Part shown: positions 12,050 through 32,382 of the stretch, piece after piece
Position numbering within the stretch: the first letter of the stretch is position 1
Layout: each line of letters starts with the position of its first letter
Assembly: GCA_016790395.1 (NCBI GenBank)
Contig: JAEUPH010000195.1
Location: 1-32,382, forward strand
Direction: 5' to 3'
DNA from: Rubrivivax sp.
GTDB taxonomy: Bacteria; Pseudomonadota; Gammaproteobacteria; Burkholderiales; Burkholderiaceae_C
DNA length: 32,382 nucleotides
Notes under the pieces: generated by a model
The model's input: the letters and a program-made list of their open reading frames with translations, nothing else
The model's database searches: none
Told to the model about the DNA's origin: nothing
Translations under genes and position numbers: made by a program

Positions 12050-12109
12050 GAATGATCTCCAGATCGTCAGGGGTTTGGTCCTGCTGCACCGACTGGGCTT
12101 CACGCCAGA

Positions 12110-12124
12110 TTGCTGCGCTGCAAC
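12110..12124. promoter_or_regulatory. Palindromic operator 1 of the phasin promoter (candidate PhaR site)
   Basis: TTGCTGCGCTGCAAC is a near-perfect dyad (TTGC...GCAA). It starts ten bases downstream of the phasin -10 box, so it would overlap or immediately follow the transcription start. PhaR repressors bind TGC/GCA-rich dyads in phasin promoters and release them when PHB is present. Assignment is by motif and context. Confidence 0.6.
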
Positions 12125-12133
12125 ATGGACTGA

Positions 12134-12162
12134 AGTATCGGCCAGGCACCGCGAGGGTGCAA
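12134..12162 (-). promoter_or_regulatory. Sigma70 promoter of the phasin gene
   Basis: On the minus strand, TTGCAC (12157-12162) and GATACT (12134-12139) are separated by exactly 17 bp. Transcription would begin near 12127, giving a leader of about 78 bases before the phasin ATG. Confidence 0.7.
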
Positions 12163-12169
12163 GCCCTTT

Positions 12170-12184
12170 TTGCTGCGCCGCAAC
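12170..12184. promoter_or_regulatory. Palindromic operator 2 of the phasin promoter (candidate PhaR site)
   Basis: TTGCTGCGCCGCAAC differs from operator 1 at a single base and lies exactly 60 bp from it, just upstream of the phasin -35 box. It also sits 32 bp before the GTG start of the divergent deacylase gene, so a bound repressor could affect both directions. Confidence 0.6.
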
Positions 12185-12208
12185 ATTCTAGGGACGCCTT
12201 CCTAGAAT
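12185..12208 (+). promoter_or_regulatory. Inverted repeat in front of the deacylase start codon
   Basis: ATTCTAGG (12185-12192) and CCTAGAAT (12201-12208) form a perfect 8-bp dyad with an eight-base loop. It abuts the second phasin operator and ends eight bases before the proposed GTG. It could be a protein-binding site or an mRNA hairpin limiting ribosome access. No T-tract follows. Confidence 0.45.
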
Positions 12209-12216
12209 CCGCCGCC

Positions 12217-13179
12217 GTGCGCGCCTTCCATGCCGATGCCTTCGTCCTGCCGCTTCCTGCGGGGCACAGCTTCCCCATGGGCAAGTACCGCCTGCTGCGC
12301 GAGGCGGCCGAAGCCACGCTCCCGGGCGTGCGGGTGGGCGAAGCGCCACCGGCCAGCGACGGCGAGCTGGCGCTGGCCCACGAACCGGCCTGGATCCACG
12401 CCGTGACCTCCGGCAGCACCACGGCAGCACAGCAGCGCGAGATCGGCTTCCCGTGGAGCGAGCGCATGGTGGAACGGGCGCGGCGGTCGGTCGGCGCCAC
12501 CATCGCCGCCGCGCGCGCGGCGCTCTTCGACGGTGAGGGCGTCGCCGCCAACCTCGCCGGCGGCACCCACCACGCCTATGCACACAAGGGCTCGGGCTAC
12601 TGCGTTTTCAACGACGTGGCCGTGGCCGCACGCCTGATGCAGGCCGAGTGGCACCGCCACTTCCGGCGCGGCCTGCGCGTGCTGGTGATCGACCTGGACG
12701 TGCACCAGGGCAACGGCACCGCTTCCATCTTCGCCGACGACCCGACCGTCTTCACCCTGTCACTGCACGGGGCCAAGAACTTCCCCTTCCGCAAGGAAGC
12801 CAGCGACCTGGATGTGGAACTGCCCGACGGCACCGGCGACGCCGAGTACCTGGCCGCGCTGGACGGGGCGCTGGCCGAAGCAGCCCGGCGAATGACCGAT
12901 CACCCGCCCGGGCTGGCCTTCTACCTGGCCGGTGCCGACCCGCACGAAGGCGACCGGCTGGGCCGCCTGAAGCTCACCGAAGCGGGCCTGGCCGAAAGAG
13001 ACCGCCGCGTGCTGGCCTGGCTGGCGGCGCGGCGCATCCCCGTGGCCTTGTCCATGGCCGGGGGCTACGGGCGCGACATCGCGGTGACGGTGGCGGTGCA
13101 GCGGCGCACGCTGGAACTGGCGCATGGCGCCTGGGCTGCCTGGGCCGACCGGCGGCTGGTGGAAGAATCGGCCGCATGA
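12217..13179 (+). CDS. Histone deacetylase-like amidohydrolase
   Basis: This is a 320-residue zinc hydrolase of the arginase/deacetylase superfamily. It should remove acyl groups from amines such as acetyl-lysine or acetylpolyamines. All active-site elements are visible: the His118-His119 pair in GGTHHAY, zinc ligands Asp161 and His163 (DLDVHQGNGT), Asp241 (GADPHEGD), and Tyr284 in AGGYG. The opening LPLPAGHSFPMGKY resembles class IV (HDAC11-like) bacterial members. The GTG at 12217 is chosen because homology begins at once; the longer in-frame ORF from 12052 would run through the phasin promoter. No clear ribosome-binding site is present. It overlaps the next gene by ATGA. Its true substrate cannot be read from sequence. 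Confidence 0.92.
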   Translation: MRAFHADAFVLPLPAGHSFPMGKYRLLREAAEATLPGVRVGEAPPASDGELALAHEPAWIHAVTSGSTTAAQQREIGFPWSERMVERARRSVGATIAAARAALFDGEGVAANLAGGTHHAYAHKGSGYCVFNDVAVAARLMQAEWHRHFRRGLRVLVIDLDVHQGNGTASIFADDPTVFTLSLHGAKNFPFRKEASDLDVELPDGTGDAEYLAALDGALAEAARRMTDHPPGLAFYLAGADPHEGDRLGRLKLTEAGLAERDRRVLAWLAARRIPVALSMAGGYGRDIAVTVAVQRRTLELAHGAWAAWADRRLVEESAA

Positions 13180-19783: not shown

Positions 19784-21799
19784 TCAGGCCAAGCCTTGAT
19801 GGCGGAGCATAGCGTCCAGACTGGGATCGCGCCCACGGAAGGCGCGGAAGCTCTCCAGCGCAGGCCGGCTGCCTCCGACTTCGAGGATCTGTTCACGGAA
19901 GCGAGCGCCCGTGGCGGGGTCGAAGATGCCGGCTTCCTCGAAGGCGCCGAAGGCATCGGCCGAGAGCACTTCGGCCCAGGCATAACCGTAGTAGCCGGCC
20001 GCATAGCCGCCGTCGAAGATGTGCGTGAAGGTGTGCGGGTAGCGCAGGAAGGGCGGGGCGGCCACCGGCTGGATCTCGGCGTTGACCTCCTCGGCCACGG
20101 CCTGGGGGCGGGAGGCGGCCGCGGGTTCGGTGTGCAGGCGCATGTCGAACAGCGCGAACTCGCACTGGCGCAGCAGCGACAGGCCGCTCTGGAAGTGGCG
20201 TGCCGCGAGCATGCGGTCGTACAGCGCGCGCGGCAGGGGCTCGCCGGTGTCGACGTGCGCCGTGAGCCGCTGCAGGACGTCCCATTCCCAGCAGAAGTTC
20301 TCCATGAACTGGCTGGGCAGTTCGACCGCGTCACCCTCGACGCCCGCGATGCCGGCCACCGCGCGCTCGTCCACCTGCGTCAGCATGTGGTGCAGCCCGT
20401 GGCCGAACTCGTGGAACAGGGTGATGAGGTCGTCGTGCGTCAGCAGCGCGGGCCGCCCGCCCACCGGCGGCGCGAAGTTGCACACCAGGTGGGCCACCGG
20501 CAGCTGCAGCCCGCCTTCGGGCCGCTTCCAGCGCGAGCGGCTGTCGTCCATCCAGGCACCGCCCTGCTTGCCGGTGCGCGCGTAGGGGTCCAGGTAGAAC
20601 GAGGCCACCGGGCGCTCGCCGCGGAAGATGCGGTAGTGGCGAACGCTGTCGTGCCAGACCGGCGCCGGCTCGGCACGGATGGCCACGCCGAACAGCGTCT
20701 CCACCAACCGGAACAGGCCTTGCAGCACGCGCGGTTCGGTGAAGTAGCTCTTGACCTCCTGCGCGCTGAAGGCAAAGCGGCGCTCCTTGAGCTTCTCGCT
20801 GGCGTAGGCGCGGTCCCAGGCCTGCAGGTCGGCGATGCCCAGCTCGGCGGCGGCAAAGGCACGCAGCTCGGCCAGTTCGCGCTCGGCGAAGGGGCGGGCG
20901 CGACGCGCCAGGTCGCGCACGAAGGCCAGCACTTCGTCAGGCGTGCGCGCCATCTTGGGCACCAGCGCGGCGTGGGCGTAGGTGGGGTAGCCCAGCAACG
21001 CGGCTTCCTCGGCCCGCAGTGCCAACAGCTCGGCCATCAGCGGGCCGTTGTCGCGGGTTGCGTCACCCAACTCGCTGGCCCGCGTGGCCCAGGCACGGAA
21101 GAGCTGCTCGCGCAGCGCGCGGTCGTTGGCGAACTGCATCACGGGCGTGTAGCAGGGCGCGCGCAGCGTCAGGCGGCAGCCTTCTGCGCCGGCGGCGGCC
21201 GCGGCCTCGCGCGCTGCGGCCACCACATCCTCGGGCACGCCGGCCAGGCGCGATGCGGGGACGTCGAGCGTGAAGGCGTCGGTGGCGTCCAGCACGTTCT
21301 CGCCGAACTTCTGCGACAGGGCACCGGCACGGTCCTGGATGTCGGCATAGCGCTCGCGCTGCGGGCCCTGCAGTTCGGCGCCGCCCAGCACGAAGTCGCG
21401 CAGCGCGTCCGAAAGCGCCTTGCGCTGGGCGGGTTGCAGGCTCCCGGCAGCCGGGCTGGCGGCGATGGCCTTGTACCTGGCGTACAGCCGGGCATCGGCG
21501 TTCAGGCGCGTGCTGAAGTCGATGACCAGGGGCAGGCACTCGCCATGGGCGGCCCGCAGTTCCGGGGTGTTCACCACGTTCTGCAGGTGGTTCACGTGCG
21601 ACCACGCGCGGAACAGCCGCTCCACCGGCACGTCCAGCACCAGAGCCAGCGCATCCCAGTCGGCCGCGACCGCGGGCGACACGGCCTTCTCGAGCGCAGC
21701 TTCGGCCGCCGCCAGCAACTCGACGATGGCCGGTTTCACGTGCTCCGGGCGCACCGCCGCGAACGGCGTCGGGTCGCCGCCTTCGAGGAGCGGGTTCAT
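19784..21799 (-). CDS. prlC: Oligopeptidase A (M3 metallopeptidase)
   Basis: This is a 671-residue cytosolic zinc peptidase that degrades short peptides, including cleaved signal peptides. The zinc motif [11 protein letters not shown] lies near residue 462, with the third ligand Glu in the following conserved helix. Other family stretches are [19 protein letters not shown] and the C-terminal [18 protein letters not shown]. The length matches E. coli OpdA (680). The chain begins MNPLLEGGD. The start codon overlaps the folD stop as ATGA, so it is translated in coupling with folD. Confidence 0.97.
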
Positions 21800-22653
21800 C
21801 GCACGACCTCGGCGGCCTGCAGCGTGTTCGCGAGCAGCATCGTGATGGTCATCGGGCCCACGCCACCCGGAACGGGCGTGATACGGCCGCTGTCGCCCAG
21901 TGCTTCGCGCAAGGCGGGAAAATCGACGTCGCCACAGAGCTTGCCCTCGTCGTCACGGTTCATGCCGACGTCGATGATCACCGCACCCGGCTTGACCATG
22001 TCGGCCGTGAGCGTGTTGCGCCGCCCGACCGCCACCACCACCACGTCGGCGTGGCGCGTGTGCGCGGCGATGTCGGGCGTGGCGCTGTGACAGACGGTGA
22101 CCGTGGCGTTGGCCTGCAGCAGCAGCATGGCCATGGGCTTGCCCACGGTGTTGCTGCGGCCGATGACGACGGCCCGCTTGCCCTTGAGCGCCACGCCGGT
22201 GCTTTCGATCAGCTTCATGCAGCCGTAGGGCGTGGCCGGGCGCAGGCCGGGCAGCCCGCTCATGAGCGAACCGGCGCTGTGCACGGAAAAGCCATCCACG
22301 TCCTTGGCCGTGGCGATGGCCTCGATCACCTTGTGCGGGTCGATGTGTCTGGGCACCGGCATCTGCACGAGGATGCCGTGGATCGCTGGATCGGCGTTCA
22401 GCGCGGCGATGCGGGCCAGCAGGTCGGCTTCGGGGAGCGTGGCTTCGTACTTCTCCAGGACCGAGTGGAAGCCGCACTCCTCGCAGGCCTTGACCTTGTT
22501 GCGCACGTAGACGGCGCTGGCAGGGTCGTCGCCGACGAGGATGACGGCGAGTCCCGGACGGCGGCCGGCGCCAGCCAGGGCGGCGGCGCGGGCGCCGATC
22601 TCGGCGCGCAGGCTCTTGGACAGCGCGACGCCGTCGATCAACTGGGCTGGCAT
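21796..22653 (-). CDS. folD: Bifunctional methylenetetrahydrofolate dehydrogenase/cyclohydrolase
   Basis: FolD converts 5,10-methylene-THF to 10-formyl-THF with NADP+, feeding purine and fMet-tRNA synthesis. The 285-residue protein shows [20 protein letters not shown] with the catalytic lysine near residue 55, the signature [13 protein letters not shown], the NADP motif [11 protein letters not shown] and the C-terminal [16 protein letters not shown]. All are intact. It is the first gene of the folD-prlC-glutaredoxin run and follows the response-regulator gene, separated by a hairpin. Confidence 0.97.
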
Positions 22654-22720: not shown

Positions 22721-23344
22721 TCAGCTCTTGCTCTGCGCGCCCAGCGCGATCTTGAGCAGGTCGGCCACGGTGTTGGCGTTCAGCTTTTCCATGATGTTGG
22801 CGCGGTGCGCCTCCACCGTCTTGATGCTGATGCCCAGGTCGTCGGCGATCTGCTTGTTCAGGCGCCCGGCGACGATGCGCTCCAGGACCTGGGCTTCGCG
22901 CGTGGTCAGGCGCGACAGCAGGGCGTCGCGGCTGGCCTGTTCCTGGTGCTGGCTGAAGGCCTGGCGCGCCTGGTCGAGCATGCGCTCCACCAGGCCCAGC
23001 AGTTCCTCTTCCTTGAAGGGCTTCTCGATGAAGTCCATCGCGCCCTTCTTCATCGTCGTCACGGCCATGGGGACGTCGCCGTGGCCGGTGATGAAGACGA
23101 TGGGCAGCGGGCTCTTGCGCTCGAGCAGGCGGTCCTGCAGTTCCAGGCCGCTCATGCCATCCATGCGGATGTCGGCGATGAGGCAGGCCACCTCGCGGGG
23201 GTCGAAGCGCGAGAGGAACGATTCCGAGGAATCGAAGCACTTGACGCGGTAGTCCTTGCCTTCAAGCAACCATTGCAGGGAGTCGCGCACCGCCTCGTCG
23301 TCATCGACGACGTAGACCGTGCCTTTCTTCGGGATCAGGCTCAT
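22721..23344 (-). CDS. FixJ/NarL-family response regulator
   Basis: This is a 207-residue two-component transcription regulator. The receiver domain (about 9-125) has the acidic pocket Asp14-Asp16, the phospho-acceptor Asp58 (ADIRMDG) and the conserved lysine in IEKPF. A Q-rich linker leads to a LuxR-type helix-turn-helix (about 145-195) with [15 protein letters not shown] and [14 protein letters not shown]. Its closest style is FixJ/TtrR. It lies 29 bases after the histidine-kinase gene, so the two form a pair. The kinase gene is back to back with aceE, making the aceE promoter a natural candidate target (inference). Confidence 0.95.
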
Positions 23345-23373
23345 GCGGGGCGGTGCTCGCGCACTGGAAAGGG

Positions 23374-25941
23374 CTAAGGGGATGGAGAGGTGGTTTCGCC
23401 TTCGGCCGCCGGGGCCGGGGCGTCAGAGCGGTGCAGCGTCTCCACCGGCACGGTGAAGGAGAACCGGCATCCGACAGCCTGCGTTCCATTGTAGAGGTTC
23501 TGGGCACGCATCCGGCCGCGGTGCGACTCGATGATGGAGCGACACAGGGACAGGCCGATGCCCAGGCCCTCCTTCTTGGTGGAGAAGAAAGCCTCGTAGA
23601 GCCTGTCGATGACCTCGTCCTTGATGCCGGGCCCGGTGTCGGTGACGCTGAACTCGATGACGCCGCCTTCCTCGGGCGTGTGCCGCGGCACCACGCGCAG
23701 CTCGATGTGGCGGCGCTGCGGCGGCAGCTGTTCGCTGTCGATGGCTTCGGCGGCATTCTTCAGGAGGTTCAGCAGCACCTGCTCGATGAGGATGGGATCC
23801 ACCTGGATCTCGGGCAGCCGCTGCGCCACGTAGGTGTGAATGGCGACGTTGCGGCGGCGCAGTTCGATGCCGGCCAGTTCCACCGCGTCCTCGACGATCT
23901 GGCGCGCCTGCGAGGGCTGGCGCTGCGGTTCGCTGCGTTTCACGAAGGCGCGGATGCGGTGGATGATCTGCCCGGCGCGCTCGGCCTGCCGCGCCGTCTT
24001 CTGCAGCGCGGCGATGAGGTCCTCGCTGCGGATGGTGTCGGCCTTCACGCGCGAAACCATGCCGTTGCAGTAGTTGGTGATGGCCGTGAGCGGCTGGTTC
24101 AGCTCGTGGGCCACCGACGACGCCATCTCGCCCATGGTCACCAGCCGGCTGGTCACCTGCGCCTTGTCGGCCTGCGCCGCGGCCTGCTCTTCGGCGCGCA
24201 GACGCGCCGTGATGTCGGTGGCGATGAGCATCTGCGCCAGGCGACCGTCGGTCCACTGCAGGTAACGGGAGCGCACGTCGAACCACTTGCCCAGGGAGTC
24301 GATGTACACCTCGCGCGGGTTGGCGCCGGTTTCGGTGAGCTCCTGGGTGGGCAGGCCCGACAGACCGTCCACCTCGTCATCGCCATCGGCGCCGAAGGGC
24401 TCCATGCCCACCACGCCGCCGGCCATCTGCTGGTGGCCCTTGGCGTCGCCACCGAACCACAGCCGGTAGCTGCGGTTCACGAACAGCAGTTCGCCCTGCT
24501 GCACCGAGAGCACCGAGACGCTGGCGTCCAGCCCTTCCAGCACGGTGGTGAAACGCTCATGGCTGGCGCTGAGCTGGTCGCGGATGCGCTTGGCTTCGGT
24601 GATGTTGGTGATGCTGGTCATCCAGCCCGTCTGCTGGCCCTTGGGATCGATCAGCGGGCTGATGTACATGCGGGCGTCGAAGATCGTGCCTTCCTTGCGC
24701 ATGACCTTGACCTCGATGCCGCCGCTCGGGCTTCGGCCTTGCAGCTCCTGGTTCAACAGACGGTGGTTCTCTTCCACGCGGTCCGGCGGCCAGTAGGGGT
24801 AGGGCGGCTGGCGGCCCACCAGCTCGGCGGAGGTGAAGCCCGTCATCTGGCAGAAGGCGGCGTTGACGTAGGTGATGCGGCCGTCGAGGTCCATGGCGCG
24901 CATGCCGGTGGGCATGCTGTTCTCCATGGCGCGGCGGAAGTTGGTCTCCTGCACCAGCGCCCCCTGGATCTGGCTGCGCCGGCGCATGTGGCGCCAGGTG
25001 CCCAGCAGCATCCACAGCGTCAGCACCGACAGCGCCACCACCATCCAGAACAGCGTGTTGTTGACCAGGCCGATGCTGGTGCGCCAGCCCTGGCCGCGCA
25101 GCAGCAGGCCGTTGATGGCCGGCGTCAGTGGCACGTCGGTGATGATGGGCGCGCGGCGGCCGGCCTGGGCCGGGTGCGGCTTGACCGTTGCGGCCAGCAC
25201 GCGTTGCTGGTCGTCGACCACGGAGATGAGGTGGCGCTGTGCGACGTCGGCGGGGACGAAGTGGCGCACGAGAGCGTCGATCGAGTACTCGAGGATCAGC
25301 ACGCCCGCGAAGGTGTTGCGCTCCACGAGCGGGATGTGCAGCTGCATCGCTGGTGCACCCGAAGCGTCCATGAAGGCGCGCGAGTAGGTCGGGGCCCGGC
25401 TGTCGCGTGCCGCCCGGAAGGTGTTCTCGGGCTCATTGGGCACATCGGTCCGCGGCAGGTTGGGTTCGGCGGTTCCGCCCTGGGAGTCCACCTGGTAGAG
25501 CGGGGCGAAGTGGCTGGCGCGCACGCGCCGGTGCGCGTCCAGCCAGGTGAGGTGCGTGATCTCGGGGCGCTCGCGGGCGAACGCCACGGCCTGGCCGGTG
25601 AAGTCGTCGGCGTCGGTGGTGCGCATGACGATCTCGCGGGCCATGCGCATCAGGGATTCCTGGTTCTGGATCAGGCGCAGCCCGATCTGCTGCTGGGTGA
25701 TCTCGGTGTCGCGCTTGACGGACTCAGATTCCCGCTCGATTTCCTCGTTGCGCAGGTACCAGAAGGCGGAAATGATCGCCGCGAGGAACAGCAGCACCGA
25801 CAGCAAGGGCCCCAGAGTGGCGAAGCGGTCCTGGCGCGCCGGCGACTGCCTTCGCCACCAGCGCCCGACCAGGCGCTTGACCGCCGGCAAGGGGGCCGAG
25901 ACTGACGGTGCGGATGGCGGAGTCACAGGGGGCGTCGACAT
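23374..25941 (-). CDS. Membrane PAS-domain sensor histidine kinase
   Basis: This is an 855-residue kinase. After a Pro-rich cytoplasmic start it has TM1 (about 43-63), a large periplasmic sensor domain (about 64-295, probably dCache-like) and TM2 (about 296-316). Two PAS domains follow, at about 335-450 (ENSMPTGMRAMDLDG) and 460-590. The phospho-acceptor His612 sits in AHELNQPLTAITNY, the H-box style of the FixL/DctB/TodS group. The ATP-binding domain has an N-box (NLLKNAAEA, Asn729), DTGPGI (from Asp768), an F-box region and GLGIGLSLCR. It probably detects an external small molecule; the ligand is unknown. Its partner is the FixJ-type regulator just downstream. The gene diverges from aceE across 135 bp. 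Confidence 0.95.
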   Translation of the reverse strand: MSTPPVTPPSAPSVSAPLPAVKRLVGRWWRRQSPARQDRFATLGPLLSVLLFLAAIISAFWYLRNEEIERESESVKRDTEITQQQIGLRLIQNQESLMRMAREIVMRTTDADDFTGQAVAFARERPEITHLTWLDAHRRVRASHFAPLYQVDSQGGTAEPNLPRTDVPNEPENTFRAARDSRAPTYSRAFMDASGAPAMQLHIPLVERNTFAGVLILEYSIDALVRHFVPADVAQRHLISVVDDQQRVLAATVKPHPAQAGRRAPIITDVPLTPAINGLLLRGQGWRTSIGLVNNTLFWMVVALSVLTLWMLLGTWRHMRRRSQIQGALVQETNFRRAMENSMPTGMRAMDLDGRITYVNAAFCQMTGFTSAELVGRQPPYPYWPPDRVEENHRLLNQELQGRSPSGGIEVKVMRKEGTIFDARMYISPLIDPKGQQTGWMTSITNITEAKRIRDQLSASHERFTTVLEGLDASVSVLSVQQGELLFVNRSYRLWFGGDAKGHQQMAGGVVGMEPFGADGDDEVDGLSGLPTQELTETGANPREVYIDSLGKWFDVRSRYLQWTDGRLAQMLIATDITARLRAEEQAAAQADKAQVTSRLVTMGEMASSVAHELNQPLTAITNYCNGMVSRVKADTIRSEDLIAALQKTARQAERAGQIIHRIRAFVKRSEPQRQPSQARQIVEDAVELAGIELRRRNVAIHTYVAQRLPEIQVDPILIEQVLLNLLKNAAEAIDSEQLPPQRRHIELRVVPRHTPEEGGVIEFSVTDTGPGIKDEVIDRLYEAFFSTKKEGLGIGLSLCRSIIESHRGRMRAQNLYNGTQAVGCRFSFTVPVETLHRSDAPAPAAEGETTSPSP

Positions 25942-25987
25942 GGCTGGATTATCGGTGCCGCACGGGTTGGCTCCTCAGAATCCCATA

Positions 25988-26015
25988 TTATGAAATCAAG
26001 TGGCACTATTTGAAA
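25988..26015 (-). promoter_or_regulatory. Weak candidate promoter for the histidine-kinase gene
   Basis: On the minus strand, TTTCAA (26010-26015) and CATAAT (25988-25993) are 16 bp apart in an AT-rich island unusual for this sequence. Transcription would start about 40 bases before the kinase ATG. The -35 match is poor. Confidence 0.3.
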
Positions 26016-26024
26016 AATGGTCGC

Positions 26025-26053
26025 GTTGTGACACACTCGCGCCCGATCACAAC
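26025..26053. promoter_or_regulatory. Dyad in the aceE upstream region
   Basis: GTTGTGA (26025-26031) and TCACAAC (26047-26053) are perfect inverted repeats whose centres are 22 bp apart, about two helical turns. The dyad ends 23 bases before the aceE ATG and includes no coding sequence. It is a candidate regulator-binding site for the pyruvate dehydrogenase operon. The 15-base spacer differs from the six of a CRP site. Confidence 0.4.
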
Positions 26054-26076
26054 AGCCTTGCAACAAGGAGACAAGC

Positions 26077-28782
26077 ATGTCCGCGATGCCGGAATCGTTC
26101 CACGGCGCTGCCGCCAACGACACCGATGCCCAGGAGACCCGTGAGTGGCTGGACGCCTTGTCCGCCGTCATCGGCGAAGAAGGCGAGGAGCGCGCGCACT
26201 TCCTGCTGGAGCAACTCATCGACCACGCGCGCCAGGCCGGCATCGACGTGCCGTTCTCCGCCAACACGGCCTACGTGAACACGATTCCCGCAGACCAGGA
26301 AGAGCGCACGCCGGGGAACATCGACATTGAGGAGCGCCTGCGCACCTACATGCGCTGGAACGCGATGGCCATGGTGGTGAAGGCCAACCGCCTGCACCCG
26401 GCCGACGGCGGCGACCTGGGCGGCCACATCTCCTCGTTCGCTTCGGTGGCCACGATGTTCGGCACCGGCTTCAACCACTTCTGGCACGCCGAGAGCGAAG
26501 GCCACGGTGGCGATCTGCTCTACATCCAGGGCCACAGCGCCCCCGGCATCTACGCCCGCGCCTTCATGGAAGGCCGGCTGACCGAGGAGCAGTTGCTGAA
26601 CTTCCGCCAGGAGGTGGACGGCAAGGGTATCTCCAGCTACCCGCACCCCAAGCTGATGCCCGACTTCTGGCAGTTCCCCACGGTCAGCATGGGCCTGGGC
26701 CCCTTGATGGCCATCTACCAGGCGCGCTTCCTGAAGTACCTGCACGCGCGCGGCATCGCCGACACCGCCAACCGCAAGGTCTGGGTCTTCTGCGGCGACG
26801 GCGAGATGGACGAGCCCGAGAGCCTGGGCGCCATCGGCCTGGCGGCGCGCGAGAAGCTCGACAACCTGGTCTTCGTCATCAACTGCAACCTGCAGCGCCT
26901 GGACGGCCCGGTGCGCGGCAACGGCAAGATCATCCAGGAACTGGAAGGCGAGTTCCGCGGCTCGGGCTGGAACGTCATCAAGCTGCTGTGGGGCAGCTAC
27001 TGGGACCCGCTGCTGGCGCGCGACAAGGAAGGCATCCTGCGCAAGGTGATGATGGACGTCGTCGACGGCGACTACCAGGCGATGAAGGCCAACGACGGTG
27101 CCTTCGTGCGCAAGAACTTCTTCGGCCGCCACCCCAAGCTGCTGGAGATGGTGGCCAAGATGAGCGACGAGGACATCTGGCGCCTGCAGCGTGGTGGCCA
27201 TGACCCGCAGAAGGTGTACGCCGCCTTCCACCGTGCCAACAGCCACAAGGGCCAGCCGACGGTGCTGCTGGTGAAGACCGTCAAGGGCTTCGGCATGGGC
27301 AAGAGCGGCGAGGGCAAGAACACCGCGCACCAGACCAAGAAGCTGATCGACGAGGACGTGCGCGCCTTCCGCGACCGCTTCGCCGTGCCCATCCCCGACG
27401 AGAAGCTCTCGGACATCCCCTTCTACAAGCCGGCCGACGACACGCCGGAGATGAAGTACCTGCACGAGCGCCGCCAGGCGCTGGGCGGCTACCTGCCCAA
27501 GCGCCGCGCCAGGGCCGACGAGAGCTTCACCGTGCCCAGCCTGGAGACCTTCAAGAGCGTGCTGGAGCCCACGCCCGAGGGCCGCGAGATCAGCACCACT
27601 CAGGCCTACGTGCGCTTCCTGACGCAGCTGCTGCGCGACCAGGCCCTGGGCCCGCGCGTGGTGCCCATCCTGGTGGACGAGGCGCGAACCTTCGGCATGG
27701 AGGGCCTCTTCCGCCAGATCGGCATCTACAACCCCGAGGGCCAGAAGTACACGCCGGTCGACAAGGACCAGGTCATGTACTACAAGGAGGACAAGGCCGG
27801 CCAGATCCTGCAGGAAGGCATCAACGAGGCGGGCGGCATGGCCAGCTGGATCGCCGCGGCGACGTCGTACTCGACGAACAACCGCATCCTGGTGCCGTTC
27901 TTCATCTACTACTCGATGTTCGGCTTCCAGCGCATCGGTGACCTGGCCTGGGCCGCTGGCGACATGCAGGCGCGCGGCTTCCTGCTCGGCGGCACCAGCG
28001 GCCGCACCACGCTGAACGGCGAAGGCCTGCAGCACGAGGACGGCCACAGCCACATCCTGGCCGGCACCATCCCGAACTGCATCTCCTACGACCCCACCTT
28101 CGCGCACGAGGTCGGCGTGATCATCCACCACGGCCTGAAGCGCATGGTGGAAAAGCAGGAGAACGTGTTCTTCTACCTCACGTTGCTCAACGAGAACTAC
28201 CCCATGCCGGGCCTGAAGGCCGGCACCGAGGAGCAGATCCTCAAGGGCATGTACCTGCTGGAAGAGGGCGCCAAGAAGACGCCGCGCGTCAACCTGCTGG
28301 GCAGCGGCACCATCCTGCGCGAGAGCCAGGAGGCGAAGAAGCTGCTGGAAGCCGACTGGGGCGTGGCGGCCAACGTGTGGAGCTGCCCCAGCTTCAACGA
28401 ACTGGCCCGCGACGGCCAGGACTGCGAGCGCTGGAACCTGCTGCACCCGACGGCCGAGGCGCGCGTGCCCTACGTGACGCAGCAGCTGAACGCGCACGCC
28501 GGGCCGGTGGTGGCCTCCACCGACTACATGAAGAGCTACGCCGACCAGATCCGCGCCTTCATCCCCAAGGGCCGCAGCTACAAGGTGCTGGGCACCGACG
28601 GCTTCGGCCGCAGTGACTTCCGCAGCAAGCTGCGGGAGCACTTCGAGGTGAATCGGCACTACATCGTCGTCGCGGCGCTCAAGGCGCTGGCCGACGAAGG
28701 CACCGTGCCCGCCACCAAGGTGGCCGAGGCGATCCAGAAATACGGCATCGCGGCGGACAAGATCAATCCGCTGTACGCGTGA
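26077..28782 (+). CDS. aceE: Pyruvate dehydrogenase E1 component (homodimeric type)
   Basis: AceE decarboxylates pyruvate with thiamine diphosphate and transfers the acetyl group to the lipoyl arms of AceF. At 901 residues it is full length for the homodimeric AceE family. The ThDP/Mg motif begins GDGEMDEPE at residue 240 and ends at NCN near 269-271. Other family stretches are [27 protein letters not shown] and [21 protein letters not shown] strong ribosome-binding site AAGGAGA lies five bases before the ATG. It is the first gene of aceE-aceF-BPH-lpdA. The divergent kinase/regulator pair and the dyad at 26025-26053 are the visible candidates for control. Confidence 0.98.
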
Positions 28783-28807
28783 CCCTCAGAACAAACGGAG
28801 ACAGGAC

Positions 28808-30454
28808 ATGGCGTTGGTCGAAGTGAAGGTGCCGGACATCGGCGACTTCAAGGACGTGGAAGTCATCGAGCTGATGGTCAAGCCGGGCGACAAGGTCGTG
28901 GTCGACCAGAGCCTGCTGACCGTGGAAAGCGACAAGGCGTCGATGGAGATCCCTTCGTCGCACGCGGGCGTGGTCAAGGAGATGAAGGTCAAGCTCGGCG
29001 ACAAGGTCGGCGAAGGCACGCTGGTGCTGGTGCTGGAGGCCGAAGGTGCTGCGGCGCCGGCCGCGGCCGCGGGTGCTGCGCCGGCCCCCGCCCCGGCGGC
29101 AGCGGCACCGGCGGCTGCCCCTGCGGCACCCGCGGCGGCCCCTGCCGCGGGCGGCCCGGTGGACGTGGTCGTGCCCGACATCGGCGACTTCGACCAGGTG
29201 GCCGTGATCGAGATCTTCGTGAAGCCCGGCGACAGCGTGAAGGTGGAGCAGAGCCTGATCACGGTGGAGAGCGACAAGGCGTCGATGGAGATCCCGTCCT
29301 CGCACGCCGGCGCGGTGACGCAACTGCTGGTGAAGGTGGGCGACAAGGTCTCCAAGGGGACGAAGATCGCCGTGCTGCAGGCGGCGGCCAGTGCTGCGCC
29401 GGCGGCAGTGGCACCGGCCGCCCCGGCACCCGCCGCGGCGCCGGCGGCTGCCGCACCGGCCACTGCAGCCGCCACGGCCGCACTGCCGGCGCACGCGCCC
29501 GGCACGCCTTCGGGCGGGCTGCCGCACGCTTCGCCCACCATCCGCCGCCTGGCGCGCGAACTGGGCGTGCCGCTGGCCGAGGTCAAGGGCTCGGGCCCCA
29601 AGGGCCGCATCCTGCAGGCCGATGTGCAGGGCTTCGTGAAGGCCGTGATGGCCGGCGACGCCCAGACCGCGGCACAGAAGGCCAAGGCCCCGGCCGCGTC
29701 GGCCGCCGGCGGCGGCAGCTTCCCCGGTCTGCTGGCCTGGCCGCAGGTGGATTTCGCGAAGTTCGGCGCCGTGGAGCGCAAGGATCTCAGCCGCATCAAG
29801 AAGATCAGCGGTGCCAACCTGCACCGCAACTGGGTGCTCATCCCGCACGTCACCAACCACGACGATGCCGACATCACCGAGCTGGAAGCCTTCCGGGTGC
29901 AGCTCAACAAGGAGAACGAGAAGAGCGGCGTGAAGGTGACGATGCTGGCCTTCATGATCAAGGCGGCCGTCGCGGCGCTGAAGAAGTTCCCCGAGTTCAA
30001 CGCCAGCCTGGACGGCGACCAGCTGGTGTTGAAGAAGTACTTCCACATCGGCTTCGCCGCCGACACGCCCAACGGCCTGGTGGTGCCGGTGATCAAGGAC
30101 GCCGACCAGAAGGGGGTGCTGCAGATCAGCAAGGAGATGAGCGAGCTGGCCGCCAAGGCGCGCGACGGCAAGCTGGGCCCGGCCGACATGAGCGGCGGCT
30201 GCTTCAGCATCAGCAGCCTGGGCGGCATCGGGGGGCGCTACTTCACGCCCATCATCAACGCGCCAGAAGTGGCCATCATGGGCGTGTGCAAGAGCAGCAC
30301 CGAGCCGCGCTGGGACGGCAAGCAGTTCGCGCCGCGGCTGATCCTGCCGCTGAGCCTGAGCTGGGACCACCGCGTCATCGACGGCGCCGCCGCGGCGCGC
30401 TTCAACGCGTACTTCGGCAGCCTGCTGACCGACTTCCGCCGCATCCTGCTCTGA
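28808..30454 (+). CDS. aceF: Dihydrolipoyl acetyltransferase, PDH E2 component
   Basis: AceF forms the core of the pyruvate dehydrogenase complex and passes acetyl groups from lipoate to CoA. The 548-residue chain has two lipoyl domains, each with the lipoylation motif ESDKAS (Lys43 and Lys157), joined by flexible Ala/Pro linkers. A peripheral-subunit-binding domain follows (about 239-277, [13 protein letters not shown] and GPKGRIL), then another linker and the C-terminal catalytic domain with the HRVIDG motif containing the active-site His and Asp. Two lipoyl domains is intermediate between the one of many organisms and the three of E. coli. It follows aceE by 25 bases. Confidence 0.98.
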
Positions 30455-30461
30455 AGCGCCG

Positions 30462-31040
30462 ATGAGCACCGTCGTCGTCGCCCGCAAGGGCGCCACCGTG
30501 GCCATCGCGTCGGACGCGCTCGTCACCTACGGCGAGACGCGCCTGCCGCCGGGCTACGAGGCCAACGACAAGATGTTCACGGTGGACAGCAGCATGGTCG
30601 GCGCCGTGGGCAGCATCGCGCACATGGCGGTGCTGCGGCGCGCGCTGGCCGAGCTGCCACCCGAAGAGCGCCAGCTGCATTCGCGCGACGGCCTCTTCGA
30701 CACCTTCCTGCGCCTGCACCCCAAGCTCAAGGACCGCTATTTCCTGAACACCAAGGAACACGACAGCGACCCCTACGAGAGCAGCCAGTTCGCCATCCTC
30801 ATCGCCAACGCGCACGGCATCTTCGGCGTGGAGAGCTACCGCGAGGTCTTCGAGTACCAGCGCTTCTGGGCCTCGGGTTCGGGCCGGCGCTTTGCCCTGG
30901 GTGCGATGCACGCGGTCTACGAGAAAGCCAAGACCGCGCGCGAGATCGCCGAAGCGGGCGTGCTGGCCGGCTGCGAGTTCGACACCAGCTCGGCCGGGCC
31001 CGTGCGCATCCACACCTACAAACTCAAGAGACATCACTGA
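30462..31040 (+). CDS. Betaproteobacterial proteasome homologue (BPH), Ser1-type Ntn-hydrolase
   Basis: This 192-residue protein resembles HslV and proteasome beta subunits. After removal of Met the chain starts Ser1-Thr2-Val3-Val4-Val5, aligning with HslV TTIVSV. Asp17 matches the catalytic Asp17, and Lys36 matches Lys33 after a three-residue insertion ([11 protein letters not shown]). The motif Gly138-Ser139-Gly140 ([12 protein letters not shown]) matches the conserved GSG near HslV Ser124. There is no prosequence, signal peptide or hslU nearby. From published work, BPH descends from HslV, forms tetradecameric double rings, has no known unfoldase, and some subfamilies use Ser instead of Thr. 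This gene fits that Ser subfamily. It starts seven bases after aceF and ends one base before lpdA, so it must be co-expressed with PDH. Substrates are unknown. Confidence 0.85.
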
Positions 31041-31041
31041 C

Positions 31042-32382
31042 ATGGCCCTCATCGACATCATCGTGCCGGACATCGGCGACTTCAAGGACGTGGCCGTCAT
31101 CGAGGTGCTGGTCAAGCCCGGTGACACCATCAAGGCCGAACAGAGCCTGATCACGGTGGAAAGCGACAAGGCTTCGATGGAGATCCCGTCGTCGGCGGCC
31201 GGCGTCGTGAAGGACATCAAGGTCAAGGTCGGCGACAAGGTCAGCCAGGGCACGGTGGTGCTGACGCTGGAAGCGGCGGGCGCCGCTGCTGCTGCGCCGG
31301 CTGCGGCCGCGCCGGCGGCCGCACCGGCTCCGGGGCCCGCCGCAGCGCCTGCTCCCGTGGCGGCCAGCTATGCCGGCGGTGCCGACCTCGAGTGCGACAT
31401 GCTGGTGCTGGGCGCCGGCCCCGGCGGCTATTCGGCGGCCTTCCGCGCCGCCGACCTGGGCCTGAAGACCGTGCTGGTGGAGCGCTTTCCCACGCTCGGC
31501 GGCGTGTGCCTGAACGTGGGCTGCATCCCTTCGAAGGCGCTGCTGCACGTGGCCGCGGTGATGGACGAGGTGAAGCACTTCGCCGACCTGGGCGTGGAGT
31601 TCGCGGCGCCCAAGGTCGATCTCTCGAAGCTGCTGGCGCACAAGAACAAGGTGGTGGGCAAGCTCACCGGCGGCCTGGCCGCCATGGCCAAGATGCGCAA
31701 GGTGACGGTGGTGCAGGGGAACGGCGAGTTCGCCGATCCGCACCACCTGAAGGTGACCACGGCCGACGGCAAGGTGCAGACGCTGCGCTTCAAGCAGGCC
31801 ATCATCGCCGCCGGTTCGGAAGCGGTGAAGCTGCCCTTCCTGCCGCAGGACGACCGCATCGTCACCAGCACCGGCGCGCTGCAGCTGCGCCAGCAGCCCC
31901 AGCGCATGCTGGTCATCGGCGGCGGCATCATCGGCCTGGAGATGGGCACGGTCTACAGCACGCTGGGCGCGAAGCTCGACGTGGTGGAGATGCTCGACGG
32001 CCTGATGCAGGGCGCGGACCGCGATCTCGTGAAGGTCTGGCAGAAGATGAACGCGCCGCGCTTCGACAAGCTGATGCTGAAGACGAAGACGACCGGCGCC
32101 GAGGCCACGAAGGACGGCATCCGCGTCATGTTCGAGGGCCTGGATGGCAGCAAGAGCGAAGGCGTCTATGACCTCGTGTTGCAGGCCGTGGGCCGCGTGC
32201 CCAACGGCAAGAAGATCGGCGCCGAAAAGGCCGGCGTGGTGGTCGGCGAGCGCGGCTTCATCCCGGTGGACGTGCAGATGCGCACCAACGTGCCGCACAT
32301 CTTCGCCATCGGCGACATCGTCGGCCAGCCCATGCTGGCGCACAAGGCCGTGCACGAGGCCCACGTGGCGGCCGAAGTGGCC
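31042..32382 (+). CDS. lpdA: Dihydrolipoyl dehydrogenase with N-terminal lipoyl domain, PDH E3 (3' partial)
   Basis: The protein reoxidises dihydrolipoyl groups of AceF with FAD and NAD+. The open frame continues past the right edge; 447 codons are present, and about 140-150 more are expected. A lipoyl domain (about 1-78, Lys43 in ESDKAS) and an Ala/Pro linker precede the flavoprotein. FAD motif GAGPGGY, redox-active disulfide in CLNVGC, NAD motif [10 protein letters not shown], and the second FAD contact [16 protein letters not shown] are all visible. The dimer interface domain with the HAHPT/HPHPT motif lies outside the window. The fused lipoyl domain is known in Betaproteobacteria, Neisseria and others. 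The start ATG follows the BPH stop by one base. Confidence 0.97.

Follow-up and report, generated by a model that had tools for sequence, protein, structure and literature searches.

Fuchs et al. (PMC5777263) found genes of BPH, the Betaproteobacteria proteasome homologue, in operons with argG, with three pyruvate dehydrogenase (PDH) genes (in Cupriavidus metallidurans) or with hsp33, and possible links of the family to damaged PDH and to stress have already been discussed there. The main text of that paper describes two recombinant BPHs, both with threonine as residue 1 (Thr1), which were inert on the standard substrates tried, yet bound epoxomicin; Cm-BPH bound MG132 as well. Pull-downs with the C. 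metallidurans BPH recovered neither PDH subunits nor HslU, and carbonylation patterns were not altered by BPH. Thr1 is the prototype, and every BPH outside Betaproteobacteria was described as having serine (Ser1). The passages covered of PMC8665760, a later survey from the same group, give no further function of BPH. Among the papers listed in a literature search, only PMC5777263 contained Rmet_1198, and none contained H16_A1376.

The question of why proteasomes keep a threonine nucleophile has been addressed with an engineered yeast mutant (PMC4792962). The methyl group of Thr1 in the proteasome is anchored by Ala46, Lys33 and Thr3. In the yeast beta5-T1S mutant, the Ser1 hydroxyl is rotated by 60 degrees into the place of the methyl group, and activity was 40-45% lower on one substrate with no detectable loss on another.

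In this study, we analysed a 32,382-nucleotide stretch of Rubrivivax sp. DNA (the window, meaning the whole stretch), which carries a BPH gene within a PDH operon. A sequence-only reading had proposed a protease tied to PDH quality control and had considered such a system new; the stoichiometric co-expression with PDH and the PDH substrates that it drew from the location were suggestions, not observations. The BPH identity, Ser1 and the operon position all stood up, but the newness did not, because both the operon location and the damaged-PDH idea are in PMC5777263; the main claim is thus largely in print, together with the negative pull-down and carbonylation experiments. The PDH linkage was dropped as a novelty for this reason. 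What looks new is a betaproteobacterial Ser1 lineage in which residue 48 has changed together with residue 1.

RESULTS

A BPH gene within the PDH operon

The genes run in the order aceE-aceF-BPH-lpdA, all on the plus strand (Table 1). Since aceF ends at 30454 and the ATG of lpdA lies at 31042, the BPH gene is separated from them by 7 bases and 1 base, respectively, and these coordinates agree with the earlier description of a 192-residue reading frame between the two genes. The N-terminus of LpdA is a lipoyl-type domain (named by eye). A consensus scan covering 25800-31300 detected neither a terminator-like site on the plus strand nor, within aceE-aceF-BPH, a promoter-like site on either strand, which fits a single transcript but is no proof of it. 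A check for a dedicated AAA unfoldase gave only aceE, aceF, BPH and lpdA as operon genes; HslU is encoded on another contig, beside part of hslV.

Elsewhere in the window, a PAS-domain histidine kinase and a LuxR-type response regulator are encoded divergently from aceE, and this pair could regulate the PDH operon. An M3-family oligopeptidase gene and folD overlap by 4 bases. The gene of a histone-deacetylase-family protein lies upstream of the PDH operon at a distance of about 13 kb; elsewhere, PDH is known to be acetylated.

Table 1. Features of the window and of the BPH gene (residues in mature numbering; A1, 86-row alignment)
Feature	Position	Strand	Remarks
Histone-deacetylase-family protein	12052..13179		
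M3-family oligopeptidase	19784..21799	-	
folD	21796..22653	-	
PAS-domain histidine kinase and LuxR-type response regulator	22721..25941	-	
aceE, pyruvate dehydrogenase E1	26077..28782	+	Pfam PDH_E1_M
aceF, dihydrolipoamide acetyltransferase, two lipoyl domains	28808..30454	+	Pfam 2-oxoacid_dh, Biotin_lipoyl (2 stretches), E3_binding
BPH gene	30462..31040	+	192 aa with initiator Met, ATG start; predicted mature chain of 191 residues from Ser1
Ser1, predicted N-terminal nucleophile, codon AGC	30465..30467	+	
Asp17, catalytic triad	30513..30515	+	Invariant in A1
Lys36 (Td-BPH Lys37, proteasome Lys33)	30570..30572	+	Invariant in A1; numbering from PMC5777263
Val48 (proteasome residue 46)	30606..30608	+	Co-varies with Ser1
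Gly49, oxyanion-hole glycine (Td-BPH Gly50, proteasome Gly47)	30609..30611	+	Invariant in A1
Pore loop region, 19 residues	30726..30782	+	Acidic run interrupted by His99 in most of the Ser1 subclade
Ser139 of the Gly138-Ser139-Gly140 (GSG) motif (Td-BPH Ser139)	30879..30881	+	
lpdA, partial (runs off the window)	31042..32382	+	From translation and homologues

Family identity and active-site residues

The product is nearest to BPH in both sequence and fold, rather than to HslV or the 20S proteasome. A phmmer search of PDB chains gave the C. metallidurans BPH (5ovu, E 1.6e-63), the T. denitrificans BPH (5ovs, E 3e-30) and HslV (E 0.017), and in a Foldseek comparison with the PDB the first six matches were to 5ovu, 5ovt and 5ovs, all BPH, followed by HslV. 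The AlphaFold2 monomer model made with A1 has a mean pLDDT of 90.7. The Pfam Proteasome model scored 22.0 bits (cut-off 22.4), and four NCBIfam HslV/proteasome models matched at 11-22 bits against cut-offs of 137-224; identity as HslV was rejected (TIGR03692, 20.8 bits against 157.75). The family trees of this analysis contain BPH-like rows only. By sequence and fold, the window gene is a true BPH, a proteasome-fold N-terminal-nucleophile hydrolase.

The residues named earlier (Ser1, Asp17, Lys36 and GSG at 138-140) are all present in mature numbering, and the catalytic set of BPH is complete: an N-terminal serine after Met, Asp17, the equivalent of Lys33, the oxyanion glycine and the equivalent of Ser129. 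In all 23 genes of the Ser1 subclade described below, the start codon (ATG in 10, GTG in 7 and TTG in 6) stands directly before Ser1. Over the same 19-residue span, the pore loop holds on average 5.0 acidic residues in the Ser1 PDH subclade, 6.6 in Thr1 PDH-linked BPHs and 7.6 in other Thr1 BPHs; the long acidic loop is kept in the window's subclade, but is weaker. By homology, the protein would be expected to form a double ring of seven, with neither a propeptide nor a dedicated unfoldase.

Distribution and genomic context of BPH genes

Of the 60 genomes in the window's genus, 23 had a BPH match, that of the window among them (13/36 among the more complete ones), as did 148/399 genomes of the order. 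The phylum sample gave 12/397, ten of the 12 being from the window's order, and a profile search of the class sample gave 46/369. The broken match of G993 in the class search was left out, and start sites of the proteins from this search were set by a rule that, close to where the profile begins, favours an M, V or L whose next residue is S, T, C or A. A scan of public genome contigs added 15 BPH loci, six of them titled Rubrivivax. Three of the 148 order genomes with a match (G427, G367 and G387) lie outside the locus set. Fetched loci without a BPH (L003, L070-L073 and L075) were left out, L002 (the same locus as L074) and the repeats L194, L195 and L198 were dropped before counting, and the merging of identical proteins reduced 188 rows to 175.

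The neighbours of these 175 distinct BPHs fell into four classes: Hsp33/Hsp15 (56; the class includes Hsp15-like neighbours), arginine/YajQ (47), PDH (41) and other (31). Representative neighbours were assigned by Pfam as HSP33, argininosuccinate synthase, DUF520 (YajQ), Ppnp and S4-domain protein, and one locus (L053) was moved from 'other' to PDH because aceF and lpdA adjoin it in tblastn. Outside the PDH class, 103 of 134 rows have Hsp33/Hsp15 or arginine/YajQ neighbours.

The 41 PDH-linked BPHs occupy exactly one side of a single branch in the 175-protein tree (SH-aLRT 98), and a careful tree that included ten outgroup rows supported the group at 97/90. The location of the gene in relatives is therefore not random; random placement had been named as what would count against the earlier reading. 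As judged from the tree, the PDH link most simply arose once and was then kept: the ancestral gene would already have lain between aceF and lpdA when the PDH-linked Burkholderiales lineages diverged, and it would then have been inherited there or lost. The linkage would thus be one old, kept arrangement, not a set of scattered insertions.

Among the arginine-linked BPHs (e.g., L174 and L170), a YajQ-type (DUF520) gene lies next downstream in 37 loci and a ppnP-type gene next upstream in 18 loci, neighbour details that are absent from the passages of PMC5777263 covered here. Carriage of BPH on plasmids or phages was considered and dropped, as the Ser1 BPH of L196 (P0002) had no match among them at the limits used.

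A threonine-to-serine switch in the PDH-linked group

The PDH-linked group divides into 23 rows with Ser1, which make up a single clade (100/99), and 18 that have kept Thr1, three of these (L022, L023 and L025) being of the window's own genus. Genomes of the window's genus supplied 21 of the 23 Ser1 rows, with two contributed by the window's own bin; the other two rows, L029 and L034, came from the scan of named contigs. The serine codon in this subclade is AGC in 22 genes and AGT in one, and all 146 Thr1 proteins of the 175-protein set use ACN. The remaining six Ser1 proteins of that set have TCN (five) or AGT (one, L181), and TCN was found in all 39 Ser1 rows from other orders among the further loci. 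Because AGC is one base away from ACC and two from TCC, the serine of the window came most simply via threonine. Tree and codons together indicate that Thr1 is switched to Ser1 once inside the PDH-linked BPHs, within the Rubrivivax-like subclade of the window.

The sequence-only reading was correct about Ser1 and stated that some subfamilies have it, but overlooked that the published Ser1 BPHs lie outside Betaproteobacteria, so that the window represents a betaproteobacterial switch. Ser1 occurs here in 23 of the 41 PDH-linked Burkholderiales rows as well as in L146, L148, L163 and L181, against the rule of Thr1 in Betaproteobacteria. The Ser1 distribution given in the main text of PMC5777263 needs revising; it is a distributional generalisation, not a defining catalytic feature.

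All 23 members of the subclade, down to 65% identity, keep Ser1, Asp17, Lys36, Gly49 and Ser139. Compared with their Thr1 PDH-linked sisters, they carry Glu123, Arg142 and Thr174 (each 23/23) and His99 in the pore loop (20/23), and these residues, with the fewer acidic ones, may reflect a shift in substrate handling. By the Nei-Gojobori method, the median pN/pS was 0.46 over all 253 pairs of the 23 Ser1 genes, and the median dN/dS was about 0.19 for the 15 closest pairs. Amino acid changes accumulate in BPH at about the rate of the middle part of LpdA (ratio 1.06, 190 pairs) and more quickly than in the C-terminal part of AceF (1.77, 253 pairs). The window BPH is a constrained gene, neither a relic nor a chance reading frame.

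Three genomes of one Burkholderiales genus (L146, L148 and L163) carry two BPHs each, one with Thr1 and one with Ser1 and Val48 (codon TCN). The latter copies group with the Ser1 BPHs of other orders, which suggests that the second BPH was gained horizontally. L181 is a lone Ser1 BPH beside argF, with codon AGT and Thr48, and represents a further betaproteobacterial origin of Ser1 without Val48.

Association of Val48 with Ser1

Residues 1 and 48 were tallied in 217 distinct proteins, three repeats having been removed from 220 rows. Residue 48 is Val in 58 of the 66 Ser1 proteins (Thr in 5 and Ala in 3), and in the 151 Thr1 proteins it is Thr (44), Cys (38), Ala (35) or Ser (34), never Val. When the positions of the window BPH were scanned for a residue that the two Ser1 groups have in common but Thr1 proteins seldom carry, position 48 ranked first after residue 1 itself (0.81; next, 0.42). 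Because the invariant oxyanion glycine directly follows it, position 48 corresponds to proteasome residue 46.

Parsimony on the 217-row tree (432 branches) gave seven changes of residue 1 and three changes to or from Val48, and all three of the latter fall on branches where residue 1 changes. At residues 48 and 1, respectively, Thr-to-Val accompanies Thr-to-Ser, Val-to-Cys accompanies Ser-to-Thr and, in the window's clade, Ala-to-Val accompanies Thr-to-Ser; for the deeper changes, the direction rests on the midpoint root. The other four residue-1 changes occur without Val48, and the eight Ser1 proteins that lack it trace to four further inferred Ser1 origins. With 8 of 66 Ser1 proteins lacking it, Val48 is not obligatory. 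Branches on which residue 1 changes account for 2.9 of the 79.9 length units of the tree, which puts three coincidences at 4.9e-5, a value uncorrected for the choice of column.

A correlated-evolution test (four states, four extra parameters) was applied to 61 of 172 candidate column-residue pairs, namely Val48, the 40 most associated and 20 random ones. Val48 had the largest likelihood ratio (19.4), with Ala188 nearly equal (19.1) and Val3 third (13.5); position 3 is also named as a contact of the Thr1 methyl, as Thr3 (PMC4792962). With only three Val48 changes, an independent-pairs sign test had too few pairs to reach 0.05. A single clade of all Ser1/Val48 rows was rejected (AU p 1.8e-6; 52-row sample, the group having been named after the trees were seen). 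In these alignments, the link between Ser1 and Val48 is strong as an association; once shared ancestry is taken into account, it is moderate.

More distant Ser1 proteasome-like proteins (L272, L274 and L275), which start with MSIV and have an AGW or TGW motif, lack Val48. They are perhaps members of a different proteasome-like family, and the Val48 rule may accordingly apply to BPH only. No compensation of T1S by Val46 was found in the literature searched, and the main-text passages of PMC5777263 covered here name no Val at the residue-48 position.

An optional companion of PDH

An lpdA match was present in 54 genomes of the genus, and the aceF-lpdA junction was read in the best 30 of these 54 loci. 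BPH lies between the two genes in 17 and is missing from 12, where the gap is 10-16 bases in 11 cases and 102 in one; the remaining junction, that of G026, ends at a contig end, and the BPH of this genome is on another contig. On the lpdA tree of these best 30 loci, BPH presence requires from four changes (well-supported branches only) to seven, and loss and replacement by recombination are both compatible with that tree. PDH can thus do without BPH, as shown by congeners in which the gene is missing and aceF almost adjoins lpdA; and since BPH also occurs in other operon contexts, the gene position does not establish the substrate.

HslV was matched in 54 of the 60 genus genomes (51 above the cut-off; the weak match in G004 falls on its BPH gene) and is present in the window genome in two contig pieces; G018 has a BPH without an HslV match. 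Replacement of HslV by BPH was rejected on these counts, G018 being the BPH-bearing genome without a match. BPH is an optional companion of PDH, not an HslV replacement.

A second aceF-BPH-lpdA set occurs in the same bin (L074; genome G000, contig C224, 15000-33193), with a BPH 70% identical to that of the window. No aceE is visible there, because this contig stops close to where aceF begins, and a second aceE was not found in the window's assembly, which is a fragmented bin of 353 contigs (75% complete, 4.59% contamination). The C224 DNA is 87-89% identical to genome G054 over pieces of 1.2-2.3 kb, and its BPH falls in a different subclade from that of the window. On these grounds, we treat the C224 set as probable contamination from a related species and not as a second PDH-BPH operon of the same genome.

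DISCUSSION

We suggest that the window encodes a working serine-type BPH, in which Thr1 was replaced by Ser1 once in the PDH-linked lineage and Val48 took over from the lost methyl contact, a reading that the sequences make somewhat probable. In the proteasome, the Thr1 methyl packs on Ala46 and so keeps the hydroxyl poised for attack, and in a Ser1 mutant the hydroxyl rotates into the vacated space. In the Rubrivivax-like subclade, Thr1 became Ser1 in step with residue 48, where a small residue (mostly Ala among the sisters) gave way to Val. This Val48 would occupy the space of the missing methyl and hold Ser1 in a productive rotamer, and it would be incompatible with Thr1. As Val48 would keep the nucleophile in the productive rotamer, the enzyme is probably a working serine-type BPH, not a decaying one. 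Its substrates may be PDH components or, possibly, oxidatively damaged proteins made alongside PDH.

The proposal that BPH, translated together with PDH, degrades E1, E2 or E3 when these are damaged or in surplus, or clips the lipoyl linkers, would account for a 41-row group found only in the PDH operon and for its tight spacing (the aceF stop and the BPH start overlap by 4 bases in 12 of the 40 PDH rows listed), and the link to damaged PDH has also been discussed in print (PMC5777263). However, the pull-downs in that paper were without PDH subunits and carbonylation was unchanged, most other BPHs (103/134) sit beside Hsp33/Hsp15 or arginine/YajQ genes, and 37 of 60 congeners, several with incomplete genomes, have no BPH match; of the 12 junctions read that lack BPH, 11 have aceF and lpdA almost adjoining. 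We consider such a role in PDH quality control unlikely.

Ser1 might instead mark drift toward a pseudoenzyme or a dying gene, with the operon slot merely a parking place. BPH presence is indeed patchy in the genus, and the two BPHs tested in PMC5777263 showed no activity in vitro. Yet every one of the 23 subclade members, even at 65% identity, has the active-site residues intact, the gene is under purifying selection and the change at residue 1 is matched by that to Val48, so that drift appears slightly less likely again than a role in PDH quality control. Acquisition of Ser1/Val48 by horizontal transfer from Ser1 BPHs of other orders would explain the identical residue pair in both groups, but is very improbable, as the window's clade is nested in Thr1 PDH-linked BPHs (100/99), a joint clade was rejected (p-AU 1.8e-6) and the serine codon families differ (AGC/AGT against TCN). 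Gene conversion of a short N-terminal patch with both residues is improbable, since in the simplest case TCN would have come with it.

A more general two-residue switch of the proteasome fold can be put forward, tentatively and at somewhat less than even likelihood: the methyl that holds the hydroxyl in place would be carried either on residue 1, as in Thr1 paired with a small residue 46, or on residue 46, as in Ser1 paired with Val46, Thr1 with Val46 being excluded, and BPH would have passed through it in both directions by parsimony, once in the PDH operon. Such a switch would explain how serine can take the place of a threonine that is nearly invariant elsewhere. On this view, A46V should restore T1S proteasomes but impair those with Thr1. 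A natural lineage that went from Thr to Ser with a changed methyl-packing residue makes the question of why proteasomes keep threonine testable by two point mutations in a crystallised family, and it extends the picture of Ser1 BPHs, placed outside Betaproteobacteria in PMC5777263, to a betaproteobacterial lineage.

Comparison with known systems

The closest described system is the C. metallidurans BPH (Rmet_1198, PDB 5OVU), which shares with the window the PDH operon, 56% identity (Foldseek match), the Asp17, Lys, Gly and Ser active-site set and, as predicted for the window BPH, the lack of a propeptide. However, it has Thr1 and an Ala before the oxyanion glycine in place of Ser1 and Val48, and its pore loop has five successive acidic residues where the window BPH has EHDSD. 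The T. denitrificans BPH (PDB 5OVS; 5OVT with epoxomicin) has the same catalytic layout at 37-38% identity, but it belongs to an argG operon and has Thr1 and a Thr before the oxyanion glycine. The Ser1 BPHs outside Betaproteobacteria (the other-order rows plus L040 and L196) resemble the window BPH in Ser1, and 32 of the 39 other-order rows also have Val48; they differ in their TCN codons and do not share one clade with the window's group. HslV shares the proteasome beta fold and the N-terminal nucleophile chemistry with the window BPH, whereas its sequence match is marginal and it partners HslU, which is here on another contig. The yeast 20S beta5-T1S mutant (PMC4792962) likewise has a serine nucleophile in the proteasome fold, but it is engineered, keeps Ala46, is less active and has a rotated Ser1, whereas the window BPH is a natural Ser1 protein with Val48.
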